NCBI GenBank assembly: GCA_013215515.1
Contig: JABSPC010000024.1
Span: forward strand, 1-9,482
Direction of reading: 5' to 3'
DNA from: Crocinitomicaceae bacterium
Lineage (GTDB): Bacteria > Bacteroidota > Bacteroidia > Flavobacteriales_D > Crocinitomicaceae
Length of the DNA stretch: 9,482 nt
Positions 1,755 to 9,482 of this stretch are shown here, piece by piece. Below the pieces are notes generated by a model. That model was not told the DNA's origin. It did not search any database and worked only from the letters and a program-made list of their open reading frames with translations. Made by a program: the position numbers and the translations under genes. The stretch's first letter is position 1; the number at the start of each line of letters is the position of its first letter.

Positions 1755-1781
1755 GAGTCCACTCAAACAGGTCATTTTTAA

Positions 1782-1811
1782 ATTCCCTATCGAAAGCTTT
1801 GCTTTCTCTTA
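1782..1811 (-). repeat. Stop-codon-linked stem-loop repeat, copy 1 (3' of hemD)
   Basis: On the minus strand the element begins with the TAA stop codon of hemD and runs 30 nt downstream. It contains a hairpin of stem GAAAGC, loop AAA and stem GCTTTC (1792-1806), followed by GATAGGGAAT. A second copy at 4592-4621 is identical at 28 of 30 positions. No T-run follows the stem, so it is not a canonical intrinsic terminator, although it lies between convergent genes. Confidence 0.6.
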
Positions 1812-3385: not shown

Positions 3386-4594
3386 ATGAGAACTGATTTA
3401 TATACACATCCTGACTACTTTAACATGGACGATTTATTGTCTGAAGAACACAAACTTGTCCGTGATGCGGCTCGTGCGTGGGTAAAAAAGGAAGTGTCTC
3501 CAATTATTGATGAGCACTACGAAAACGCAACGTTTCCAACTCACCTTCTAACTGGATTGGGAGAAATTGGTGCTTTTGGACCTTATATTCCTGAAGAATA
3601 TGGTGGACCTGGATTGGATCAAATTTCTTATGGATTGATCATGCAAGAATTGGAAAGGTGCGATTCTGGACTTCGCTCAACGGCATCAGTACAGAGTTCA
3701 TTGGTGATGTATCCGATTTGGAAATATGGGTCAGAAGAACAAAGACAAAAATACCTTCCAAAATTGGGAACCGGTGAAATGATTGGTTGTTTTGGTTTAA
3801 CAGAACCAGATCACGGATCCAACCCAAGTGGAATGCTTACTAACATTAAAGATGCTGGTGACCACTATATTTTGAATGGAGCTAAAATGTGGATTTCAAA
3901 TGCCCCTTTTGCTGATATCGCTGTAGTATGGGCGAAAAATGAAGAGGGAAGAATTCACGGATTGATTGTTGAGAGAGGCATGGAAGGTTTTTCTACTCCG
4001 GAAATGCACGGAAAACTATCGCTTAGAGCTTCTTCAACAGGTGAATTGATTTTTAATAATGTGAAGATTCCAAAAGAAAATATTTTACCTGGGAAATCCG
4101 GTTTAGGTGCTCCGCTTGGATGTCTTGACTCAGCTCGTTTTGGTATAGCTTGGGGTGCTCTGGGTAGCGCAATGGACTGTTACGATCAGGCCCTTAGATA
4201 TTCAAAAGAAAGAATTCAATTCGGCGTTCCAATTGGTGGATTTCAATTGATTCAAAAGAAATTAGCTGAAATGATTACCGAAATCACGAAAGCTCAATTA
4301 TTGACATTACGCCTTGGACAGTTAAGAAATGAGGGTAAGGCTACCTCAGCTCAAATTTCAATGGCAAAGAGAAATAATGTTGAAATCGCACTTAATATTG
4401 CACGTGAGGCAAGACAAATTCACGGAGCAATGGGTATTACTAGTGAATATTCAATTATGCGACACATGGCAAACTTGGAGTCTGTATTGACTTACGAAGG
4501 AACTCACGATATCCACTTGTTGATTACTGGACACGATATTACTGGAATTCCTGCTTTCACAAGAGAGATGCCAGATTTAAGCAAAATGAAATAA
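3386..4594 (+). CDS. gcdH: Glutaryl-CoA dehydrogenase-type acyl-CoA dehydrogenase
   Basis: This 402-residue FAD enzyme follows glutaryl-CoA dehydrogenase closely along its length: DSGLRSTASVQSSLVM (93-108), YGSEEQRQKYLPKL (114-127), CFGLTEPDHGSNPSGM (135-150), QFGVPIGGFQLIQKKLAEM in the C-terminal helical domain and YEGTHDIHLL (370-379). E371 corresponds to the catalytic base of GCDH, and R97 to the arginine that holds the substrate's distal carboxylate, which favours glutaryl-CoA over ordinary fatty acyl-CoA. The reaction is oxidative decarboxylation of glutaryl-CoA to crotonyl-CoA in lysine and tryptophan breakdown, with electrons passed to electron-transfer flavoprotein. Length and termini are normal. 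It appears monocistronic, with divergent DUF4271 upstream, and a repeat stem-loop and an intrinsic terminator downstream. Confidence 0.92.
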   Translation: MRTDLYTHPDYFNMDDLLSEEHKLVRDAARAWVKKEVSPIIDEHYENATFPTHLLTGLGEIGAFGPYIPEEYGGPGLDQISYGLIMQELERCDSGLRSTASVQSSLVMYPIWKYGSEEQRQKYLPKLGTGEMIGCFGLTEPDHGSNPSGMLTNIKDAGDHYILNGAKMWISNAPFADIAVVWAKNEEGRIHGLIVERGMEGFSTPEMHGKLSLRASSTGELIFNNVKIPKENILPGKSGLGAPLGCLDSARFGIAWGALGSAMDCYDQALRYSKERIQFGVPIGGFQLIQKKLAEMITEITKAQLLTLRLGQLRNEGKATSAQISMAKRNNVEIALNIAREARQIHGAMGITSEYSIMRHMANLESVLTYEGTHDIHLLITGHDITGIPAFTREMPDLSKMK

Positions 4595-4621
4595 GAGAAA
4601 GCAATGCTTTCGATGGGGAAT
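4592..4621 (+). repeat. Stop-codon-linked stem-loop repeat, copy 2 (3' of gcdH)
   Basis: The element starts at the TAA stop codon of the acyl-CoA dehydrogenase and contains the hairpin GAAAGC-AAT-GCTTTC (4598-4612), followed by GATGGGGAAT. It differs from copy 1 at 1782-1811 only in one loop base and one base after the stem. Similarity ends at 4621. The genuine intrinsic terminator lies 54 nt further on, so this element may serve another purpose such as 3'-end protection or processing. Confidence 0.6.
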
Positions 4622-4675
4622 CGAAGATTATCTGCTCTAGCTAATTTTATAGGGTAACCAAATCAAACTAATTTT

Positions 4676-4703
4676 AAAGGAAGTCAATTTAGCTTCCTTT
4701 TTT
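4676..4703 (+). terminator. Intrinsic terminator of gcdH
   Basis: An 8-bp perfect stem, AAAGGAAG (4676-4683) with CTTCCTTT (4693-4700), encloses a 9-nt loop and runs into six consecutive T (4698-4703). It lies 81 nt after the stop codon of the acyl-CoA dehydrogenase and is oriented to end its transcript. Confidence 0.85.
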
Positions 4704-6790: not shown

Positions 6791-9482
6791 ATGGTAACTA
6801 TGATTAATTACCTGATATACAATCGATTTAAAAATTTCCAAAAGAATTGTTTGGCTCTGCTTATGTGCGGGAGTATGTTGTCCTGTTCTACTCAGACAGG
6901 ACCTGGGGGAGTTGGAAGGACAGACGGAACTTCATCATTGGAGGGTTGGTATATGGGTGATCTTGGAATAGAAGAAGCTCCAGGAGATCCAGCAGAATTA
7001 GGTGACCCAGTAGTGCAATGGCTAGATCAAAGTAGTAATAATAATCACATGGTTACCGATGGCGCGTTTCCTCCCGGATTTTTTTCAAATGGAAATGGAT
7101 TCAATGGATTATATTTTGCCATTGGTGCGAACCGCAAAATATTGGTCTCTCCATCCCCGGTTAGTGCATCAATGACAGATGTCTCCATTTTTTCAGCATA
7201 CGTCAATAGTACATCAGGAAACGGAAATGAAAGGCCGGTAGGAGTCTCTACTAATCCAGCATGGGTTCCCAGGCCAACAAATGGGAATAATTTTAGCCAA
7301 GGAACTGATAACTCGTTCCGAAAGGATAACGGTCCGTTCATCGCTTATGGCCCTAGGAAGCATAAGTGACTATGCAGATGGAGCAACAAACATAGCTTCC
7401 GGCGCTTCTTACACAACAAATCCCGCAAGTTAGTTTAGAATTGGTCAGTTTCGAAATTCGGGTAACGATTCTTGGTTGTATGAAACAATGTTTTTCTCCT
7501 CAAAGGTAAATCTTGCGCAACGTATTATTTGAGACAATTATCTCTCCGCTAAATTTGGAAGCAGCTTAATTGCTAACGATGTTTACCAAGAAGACAATCC
7601 AATCAACTGTGAATTTGATCATGAGGTCGTTGGAATTGGAAGAATAAATGCTGCCAATATACATAATGAGGCCCAAGGAACTGGAATTGTACGTGTACTG
7701 AATCCGGTCGATTTAAATGATAATGAATTCTTAATGTGGGGACATGATCAAAGTCCGTTGACGCTAGACAAAATTACCGATCTACCAGCAGGGGGGTGTT
7801 ATCTATGTCACAACGGACGTGGAGAGCAAGTGAGAAAAGTCCTCTCGGAGCGACGGTTGACTTAGGCTGTCTAGACATTCTACGGGGCCTAACTGGACTA
7901 GGAAACTACGTGCCATCAGAAATAGCCATCATTGCAGATTTAGATAACGATGGATTTTTCAATGATGAGATTCCATTTGTTGGAGCCGTAAATATTGGTG
8001 GTAATATTTTCGAATTTACCAACACATTCTTACTTCAAGACAATATCCGTTTTACGATCGCCCTCGTGCCTTCCGAATTTGTACAGCCTCCTTTATATAC
8101 CACATCTATTGTAGACACAACCGTTTGCATTTACGATAGCATTATTATTAACTTGAATTTTAATCTGTTGCCGCTTTCGGTTCAATGGGACTTTGGAGAC
8201 TTAGCAGTATCAAACACTGTAGGAAACATTGCTCACATCTATTCGAATTCCGGCAATTACCTTGTTCAAGCAATTGTACAATACCCGTGTCATACGCATA
8301 TTGTTGATTACAATGTTACCGTATTCAATATTCCAATTGTTGATTTAGGTCCGGATACTGTCTTGTGTAGCACGAACCCATTCCTTCTTGATGCCCTAAA
8401 CCCCGGTGCGACACACATTTGGCAGGACAATTCAATTTTACAAACATATAGCGCCACAGCATCAGGAACCTATTTTGTGGAGGTTACAGACATCAATGGA
8501 TGTGTTAACTCGGATACCCTAGACATTTCTATTGGACCACCAGTTAGTGCTGGAAATGACAGTATCATAATTATATGCAATACCATCGCATCATTAGACT
8601 TGAATCAATCATTGAGTGCAGGTGTAGGACCAGGAGTTTGGTCTGAAACATCAGCCGTACCTTCTCTAAGCTTCAATACTACACTAGGTGAACTCTTTAT
8701 AACTTTTGCCCTGTCCGGCTCCTATTCATTTGATTACATCGTTGCTGGTGGATTCTGTCCGGATGATACGAGTACAATGGTCATTAACATCGTCGCGCAG
8801 CCTGATGCAGGAAGTAACTCAGTACTTTCTATTTGCTCAAGTGATGGCCTTGTTGATGTCAACACTCTTCTTTCAACCAATGTTGGTTCGGGTACTTGAA
8901 CAGAAACAGGTGTGCCAAATTCTGGACAGTTTACTGCTGGCACTGGTTCTTTGGATCCAAGTGGAATAGCCACTGGAGCTTATGATTTCACCTATACGCT
9001 AGACATCATTCCTCCATGCCCATCTGATTCTGCTGTTCTGACCGTGAACATCACAAACACCCCCGTAATTGCCTTTAACGTGATTCCCTCAGAAGGATGC
9101 GAAGGACTCGAGGTGTTTTTTGACAACCAAAGCATTACTGACCGAACGTCAACTTGTCTATGGAGTTTTGGCGATAGCAATACAAGTTCAACAAGTAGTT
9201 TCCCTTCAAACATATATTTGAATTCGGGCTTCTACGATGTGACATTGACAATAGACAACAACGGTTGTTCTTCAACTTTAACTCAGTTCGATGCTGTAGA
9301 GATTTATCCACAGCCTAATACCGATTTTAATTGGACAAGTTCTCAGATTTTTTCCGATTCTCCCATAGTAGATTTTCAAAATTAATCCAGTTCCGCAACA
9401 ATCTTTAATTGGGATTTCGGTGATGGAACTACGTCTACAGATGAAAGCCCAACACATTCATATCCTCTAGGCGTTGCTGGGA
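6791..9482 (+). pseudogene. Decayed gene for a large LamG/PKD surface protein, 3' part outside window
   Basis: One protein can be followed across several broken frames. It starts with ATG at 6791, a hydrophobic secretion signal (CLALLMCGSMLSCS), then QTGPGGVG and a LamG-like region, and continues to YVNST...SFRKDNGPFIAYG. At about 7351-7361 (the CCC run at 7351-7353 is a good candidate) the frame shifts, and the sequence goes on as SISDYADGATN..., WLYETMFFSSKVNLAQRII, NYLSAKFG and VGIGRINAANIHNEAQGTGIVR, a family-typical stretch. That part holds in-frame TAG (7431-7433) and TGA (7530-7532). At the G6 tract (7791-7796) the frame returns and runs through QRTWRASE, a PKD domain (WDFGD near 8185-8200), a TWQ-like ATHIWQDNS module and two 87-residue repeats. 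These are cut by TGA (8897-8899) and followed by further PKD domains (WSFGD near 9160; WDFGDG near 9410) with TAA at 9383-9385. Such proteins are normally exported by type IX secretion as adhesins. The neighbouring genes are intact, so general sequencing error is unlikely. A short 192-residue product (6791-7369) could still be made. Confidence 0.82.
8540..9061 (+). repeat. Two tandem 87-codon modules inside the surface-protein pseudogene
   Basis: Unit 1 (8540-8800) and unit 2 (8801-9061) are both 261 nt and encode related Ig-like modules. Shared positions include AG(N/S)(D/N)S near the start, an IC, LDLN or VDVN, G-x-G-x-W-x-ET, SGSYSFDY or TGAYDFTY, CP(D/S)D and a closing VxNI. DNA similarity is low, so the duplication is old. 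The Trp codon TGG at 8639-8641 in unit 1 lines up with the TGA stop at 8897-8899 in unit 2. Confidence 0.68.

Follow-up and report, generated by a model that had tools for sequence, protein, structure and literature searches.

The window analysed here (i.e., the whole stretch of 9,482 nucleotides) comes from a Crocinitomicaceae draft genome (G000; 79% complete, 796 contigs) and carries two copies of a short palindromic repeat on opposite strands. One copy is located at the end of hemD, which converges with a Sir2-family gene, and the other at the end of an acyl-CoA dehydrogenase gene (Table 1). The first-pass annotation had described a 30-nt element at both places, and direct comparison bears out its description: positions 1782-1811 (minus strand) and 4592-4621 (plus strand) are identical at 28 of the 30 positions, each 30-mer opens with the TAA of its own gene, and each contains the stem GAAAGC/GCTTTC with a 3-nt loop. 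On the contrary, the claim that the two sequences diverge at once after 30 nt was wrong. Indeed, related copies run to around 42-44 nt, up to ..RTGACC, and the hemD copy carries a tail with this ending. The pair is the longest and most alike of the inverted pairs found in the window by a repeat finder (33 nt, 91%), which returned 11 inverted pairs and 13 direct families in all. Both 30-mers are predicted to fold as DNA hairpins at -4.4 kcal/mol. In RNA folding of 58 nt, the hemD copy did better than shuffled sequences (z -2.4), and the dehydrogenase copy no better (z 0.07). Searching Rfam at E<=1 returned nothing in the window save one match (E 0.59) elsewhere than the element. At 6791-9482, the frame of a large secreted-type protein seems to be split into several ORFs, by pseudogenization or by draft errors.

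Table 1. Features of the two window copies and their genes, and loci of the infA-rpmJ copy
Feature	Position	Strand	Remarks
Copy 1	1770..1811	-	first triplet is the hemD TAA (1811-1809); 58.9 bits
Copy 1, TAAGA	1811-1807	-	
Copy 1, hairpin 1	1806-1792	-	GAAAGC-AAA-GCTTTC, then GATA
Copy 1, hairpin 2 region	1787-1770	-	GG-GA-ATT-TAAA-AAT-GA-CC
Copy 2	4592..4632	+	first triplet is the acyl-CoA dehydrogenase TAA; 47.9 bits
Copy 2, TAAGA	4592-4596	+	
Copy 2, hairpin 1	4597-4611	+	GAAAGC-AAT-GCTTTC; tail to 4632
hemD, uroporphyrinogen-III synthase, PF02602	1809..2546	-	stop is the first triplet of copy 1
Acyl-CoA dehydrogenase	3386..4594	+	stop is the first triplet of copy 2
Sir2-family gene, PF02146	1050..1754	+	convergent with hemD; its stop is 15 nt past copy 1; ATG at 1050 used as the start (990 in the ORF list)
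Separate terminator-like hairpin and T-run	4676..4703	+	AAAGGAAG/CTTCCTTT then TTT; downstream of copy 2; by sequence
infA-rpmJ loci	L153, L154, L157, L158, L160, L266, L276, L278, L293, L296, L300		111-138 nt

A tight pattern, searched in G000 with up to three mismatches, gave 20 matches (13 for the reversed control), and the only two without mismatch in this draft were the copies of the window. Since the tight form amounts to just these two copies, the family is visible only when the stems are allowed to vary with compensation. Patterns including the tail gave 2 matches each. With up to two mismatches allowed, a looser pattern matched 8 times, in 5 of 60 genomes, and its reversed control never. 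Summed over the genomes, a loose pattern found 30 matches in the 34 genomes of the genus, vs 8 for its reversed control, and 20 in 46 genomes outside the genus, vs 21. Judged by its excess over the reversed control, the loose pattern is restricted to the genus. There was one exact pattern match among named genomes, on a contig of a Nitrospiria MAG (L034, 2424-2447), perhaps misbinned or due to chance.

We then relied on a covariance model built from six copies; its training sequences mostly open with TAAG, which favors TAAG-starting matches, and its E-values are rough. At E<0.01, this model finds at least 27 matches in G000 and at least 18 in G011, the closest relative of G000 among the genomes compared. 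At E<=0.5, G000 has at least 34 matches, with 150 of 806 candidates scored in a genome 79% complete, and each of the 34 genus genomes has at least one, when around 0.5 per genome is expected by chance. The dispersal that had been proposed from the two window copies is thus confirmed across G000 and its relatives, and the genome holds many copies, not just two. Weak matches include chance ones: two of them (L255 862-900 and L168 494-533, with G029 and G010 among the genomes) are located inside an apparent chorismate synthase gene, apparently by chance, and gauge the false positives near 22-24 bits.

The element spans 42-48 nt and is made of NAAGA, a 6-bp hairpin with a loop of mostly 3-4 nt, GAT and, usually, a second hairpin. 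In the G000 and G011 forms, this second hairpin reads RGG-GA-NNN..NNN-GA-CC, and the core of many of them ends in GACC. The second half differs between species, so that the matches may not all belong to one family. The first four bases, counted over 55 rows (57 rows, less L149, a second locus for a site already counted, and L133:9724, a fragment of 24 nt), are TAAG in 18, GAAG in 13, CAAG in 8, AAAG in 4 and others in 12; neither a GTAG nor a CGTC unpaired tag was found at these bases in the 55 rows.

The first hairpin covaries. Over 56 distinct rows, all six of its pairs show double changes, with 96.7% pairing, and its arms change together (e.g., AGTTGC/GCAACT and AGAAAC/GTTTCT). The second hairpin is weaker, with 92.9% pairing at the outer two pairs and 72.7% at the inner three. 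For the whole structure, 89.8% of the cells are paired in these rows vs 79.4% after shuffling, and 71 cells carry double changes vs 19.7. Because the rows are akin to one another and were aligned to the model itself, this covariation only leans towards structure; in the loose pattern, the AA/TT part of the arms is fixed and the inner pairs are free. Among the loops, GNNA accounts for 21 of 27 tetraloops, GNRA for 11 of the same 27 and GNA for 10 of 23 triloops, and longer loops occur in 5 of 55 rows. A GNRA-type RNA tetraloop as a rule was rejected on this count of 11 in 27. The GNNA/GNA bias leans towards stable DNA hairpin loops, no more than that.

Positions relative to genes were established for 124 distinct hits, i.e., the loci of part of the matches, mainly the first listed, merged when the sequence and its 15-nt flanks were identical (the G003 acyl-CoA dehydrogenase copy is outside this set). 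Exact starts at a stop codon make up 22 of the 124, 11 of them at ORFs of at least 100 aa and 11 at infA, the latter being one orthologous site. In 11 hits, a stop lies within the first 40 nt of the element, and in 11 others the element begins 1-100 nt after a stop. Copies inside a same-strand ORF are in frame 0 (12), frame 1 (3) or frame 2 (2). In 26 hits, an opposite-strand start lies within 100 nt of the 5' end of the element, which points away from it; 4 hits are opposite to an ORF, and 33 have no ORF of at least 100 aa nearby. Of the 27 matches of G000 alone, 5 fall at a stop codon and 8 sit within an ORF in frame 0. At ORFs of at least 100 aa, offset 0 was seen 11 times, against two at most for any other value; this preference is partly built in, because offset 0 means TAA or TAG as the first triplet. 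The proposal that the element has a position fixed relative to the stop codon therefore stands in one part, since exact abutment recurs (22/124). A fixed 3'-UTR position is unsupported, as 12 of the 124 copies are in frame in genes, 26 run from an opposite-strand start and others are arrayed. Stop-codon abutment is real, and it is one mode of several.

More telling is where orthologs devoid of the element end. Among the at-stop genes compared, some do so at the same residue: hemD and infA of G011, and the acyl-CoA dehydrogenases of G009 and G020. Other orthologs of this dehydrogenase are shorter at their end by up to 8 residues. A derivation of the after-stop copies from coding copies, the first codon of which mutated to a stop, is unsupported at hemD and at the acyl-CoA dehydrogenase; by eye, no in-frame native stop was seen 48 nt downstream at either gene. 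The Pfam search covered 10 proteins; the names infA, rpmJ, infC, rpmI, gyrA, DUF177, L32, L17, chorismate synthase, fructose-bisphosphatase and FtsH were assigned by eye and should be taken as presumptive.

Coding copies have a bias of reading frame: 12 of the 17 same-strand coding matches are in frame 0 and 5 are not. The first codon of the frame-0 copies is GAA in 9, AAA in 2 and GAG in 1 (n=12), and their usual translation is EExAxASDGESxDDQ. One or two of the 12 (L162 and L207) agree poorly with this peptide and could be chance matches. The genes concerned include those of TsaD, an FtsH-like protease, a HU/SPOR protein and a DUF349 protein (two copies). In-frame insertion with a conserved peptide is attested by these 12 matches and by the empty sites of tsaD. 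Among 32 genomes with a tsaD match, 30 loci were retrieved and 29 were readable by motif; G000 and G011 have the insert, which the other 27 of the 29 readable orthologs lack. It measures 48 nt, i.e., 16 codons, so the tsaD frame is kept. Of the public TsaD proteins, we sampled 9 of 120 listed: two, with 86% and 79% identity to the query, carry the insert, and the other seven lack it, including two at 84% and 83% identity. By eye, no clear target-site duplication is seen at tsaD; the divergence at the other sites is too great for alignment. Elsewhere in G000, a copy in a DUF177 gene (L179, G000:C46:8183-8225) has an in-frame TAA in its hairpin loop, with the conserved DPRW end of the protein in frame beyond; this could be a pseudogene, an assembly error or a case of readthrough.

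The element is variably present between relatives at hemD, at the acyl-CoA dehydrogenase and at tsaD. By eye, it was found in 1 of 30 hemD loci and in 3 of 30 acyl-CoA dehydrogenase loci (G000, G011 and G003). In a three-protein tree, G003 groups with G009, and G000/G011 group with G026. As these nearest kin, G009 and G026, are devoid of the element at the acyl-CoA dehydrogenase, either the element was gained twice at one codon, or it was gained once and lost several times. Tandem arrays are arranged head to tail, with a 52-nt period in G026 and about four units in C525, and G028 has ten near-identical copies; the arrays and these ten copies speak for copying. In some intergenic regions of G028 (L267-L273), the element is accompanied by another short repeat, which resembles AATCTAAAAGCGAAGCGATCTAA. 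In G000, the element and its flanks are near-identical on two contigs (C520 and C590; L175, L176), from duplication or strain mixture.

At the infA-rpmJ junction, the copy starts exactly at the infA stop in 11 genomes. Because these genomes are spread over the genus tree, the infA copy points to an old function, kept at that site. We compared infA in the 11 genomes with a match there, plus G011, where the gene is devoid of the element. Hairpin 1 pairs in 97.0% of 66 cells; alternatively, a strand further downstream can take up its 3' arm in a long helix, paired in 96.0% of 99 cells. Double changes occur at 1 of 9 pairs of the long helix and at 2 of 6 pairs of hairpin 1. In the predicted junction RNA, the closing helix uses this same 3' arm, so that the two folds would be mutually exclusive. 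The S4-Flavobacteria leader RF03141 is found downstream of infA in 8 loci (L154, L157, L158, L266, L276, L278, L293 and L300); the infA-rpmJ site is near such a leader and, by prediction, able to form a junction fold. The infA-rpmJ stretch itself differs from ribosomal-protein leaders in that, over the 8 of 11 loci scanned, it matches no Rfam family at gathering score. We propose that the infA-rpmJ element may be a ribosomal-operon leader or another regulatory RNA. At what we take to be the infC-rpmI junction, the element starts at the stop in G033 and contains the stop in G003, and what we take to be the DUF177-L32 junction has copies in G000, G009 and G017. The family may have been recruited for a function beside ribosomal genes; function and mobility are compatible and can both hold.

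The search for a mobilizing enzyme covered the PF01797 family (Y1 transposase), which was found in 13 of the 34 genomes and is absent from the copy-rich G011, G009, G018 and G020, and from G003. Of 26 loci round PF01797 matches, some of which belong to one gene, an element match at E<0.01 occurs at two. The first is inside a presumed chorismate synthase gene. The second, a weak copy in G028 (L254, 1739-1780, 19.3 bits), is present on one side only and overlaps a shortened Y1 transposase ORF at its 5' end; this copy could be an insertion into the transposase gene or the remnant of a link. The element was found on both sides of a transposase in none of the 26 loci. In G000, broken pieces of Y1 transposase (L027-L031) have near their ends another palindrome, CCGAGGC..GCCTCGG. 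A repeat flanking its own RAYT was rejected on the PF01797 distribution and on these 26 loci, save for the one-sided G028 copy.

Taken together, the 30-nt repeat is probably the 5' part of a genus-wide family of palindromic repeats of 42-48 nt, likely a REP-like mobile DNA element. We infer that its mobile form would be a single-stranded DNA hairpin, inserting preferentially at A/G-rich NAA sites by means of an enzyme acting in trans and not of a resident RAYT. A copy with T as its first base would supply or abut a TAA, so that translation would stop where it normally does, leaving the hairpin as 3'-UTR; with G or A, the copy would be read through as the acidic linker described above. Selection would then leave mainly harmless positions. 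A stronger version, to which we give little credence, makes of the element a phase-locked mobile palindrome at NAA codons, the first base of which would set either a stop and a 3'-UTR hairpin (TAA) or a 16-codon linker (GAA/AAA), the infA-rpmJ copy being a two-state leader RNA.

Another way to read the after-stop copies is as a cis-acting RNA hairpin, selected at each site for 3'-end protection, coupling to the next gene or protein binding. The recurrence of offset 0 at unrelated genes would agree with it, as would the infA-rpmJ hairpin, kept in 11 genomes with an alternative downstream partner for its 3' arm, and the G033 and G003 copies after infC and before rpmI, at or containing the stop. 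However, a hairpin selected at each site sits badly with a hemD copy present in 1 of 30 genomes and an acyl-CoA dehydrogenase copy in 3 of 30, with an infA devoid of the element in G011, and with double changes at just 1 of 9 and 2 of 6 infA pairs; coding copies and antisense copies before starts also misfit a 3'-UTR role, and we regard this explanation as unlikely. Intrinsic termination, which had been suggested among other roles, is highly improbable: nothing is flagged on the sense strand at either window copy, copies occur in frame inside genes, and beyond the dehydrogenase copy, starting around 43 nt past it, there is a separate terminator-like hairpin with its own T-run. This latter hairpin has a counterpart after the G011 ortholog and escaped the terminator scan because its loop has 9 nt for a limit of 8. 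What such a reading can account for is the opposite strand, where a stem followed by TCTTA is flagged at both window copies (3 sites in the window for 1.6 expected) and might end the convergent Sir2-family transcript.

A true REP family mobilized by a resident RAYT transposase would explain the size, the palindrome and the location after genes and inside ORFs, all as described for REPs (PMC3733652), and there are PF01797 pieces in G000 and a G028 copy overlapping a transposase 5' end. Nevertheless, PF01797 is patchy (13/34 genomes, with copy-rich G011, G009, G018 and G020, as well as G003, devoid of it), two-sided flanking is seen in 0 of 26 loci, the G000 pieces have their own palindrome and the GTAG tag is missing from the element, which together make a resident RAYT improbable. 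It is hardly credible, finally, that a low-complexity acidic linker, maintained at the protein level, merely resembles a hairpin: coding copies do read EExAxASDGESxDDQ, but the same nucleotide structure is found outside genes and its arms change together.

The probable mobile family resembles several known systems. REPs of the GTAG and CGTC super-families are described as short palindromes, located mostly after genes and some inside ORFs, and the ends of GTAG REPs often supply a TAG stop codon (Di Nocera et al. 2013, PMC3733652). The same source reports CGTC REPs from Bacteroidetes among five phyla, apparently without a dedicated transposase. REPs usually exceed 100 copies per genome, according to PMC2817692. 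Our element is likewise a dispersed stem-loop repeat close to 3' ends, with some copies inside ORFs; it differs from REPs by NAAGA in place of the GTAG/CGTC tag, a stop that is mostly TAA, and a second hairpin that is usual and species-specific. The arrays seen are direct, head to tail; many REP families form pairs in opposite orientation (inverted dimers, BIMEs). RPEs are presented in a review (PMC10969869) as elements of about 150 bp that insert in frame into unrelated genes and encode a conserved peptide, and PMC3733652 mentions REP-sized RPE-4 and RPE-6 and RPEs with a CGTC end. The element shares with them this mode of insertion and the conservation of the peptide, but it measures 48 nt at tsaD, has no CGTC in its first four bases, differs in sequence and end, and has many copies outside genes. 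Both the supply of a stop codon and the insertion inside genes thus have precedents, the former in GTAG REPs and the latter in REPs and RPEs.

MITEs have terminal inverted repeats and generate a target-site duplication. By eye, neither terminal inverted repeats nor a clear target-site duplication can be made out for the element at the tsaD site, although it is, like MITEs (PMC10969869), small and dispersed next to genes. No description of this family was found in the open-licence papers searched. We conclude that these small palindromic repeats form a real family, of an ordinary type and with new details. It would add to the Bacteroidota a palindromic repeat family outside the GTAG and CGTC super-families and without an evident resident transposase. 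The movement of CGTC REPs is treated as an open question in PMC3733652, and the filled and empty tsaD sites of near relatives would provide material on how such repeats move. The bias of reading frame would make insertion into housekeeping genes tolerable, and through the infA-rpmJ copy a dispersed repeat is connected with what may be a regulator of a ribosomal operon.
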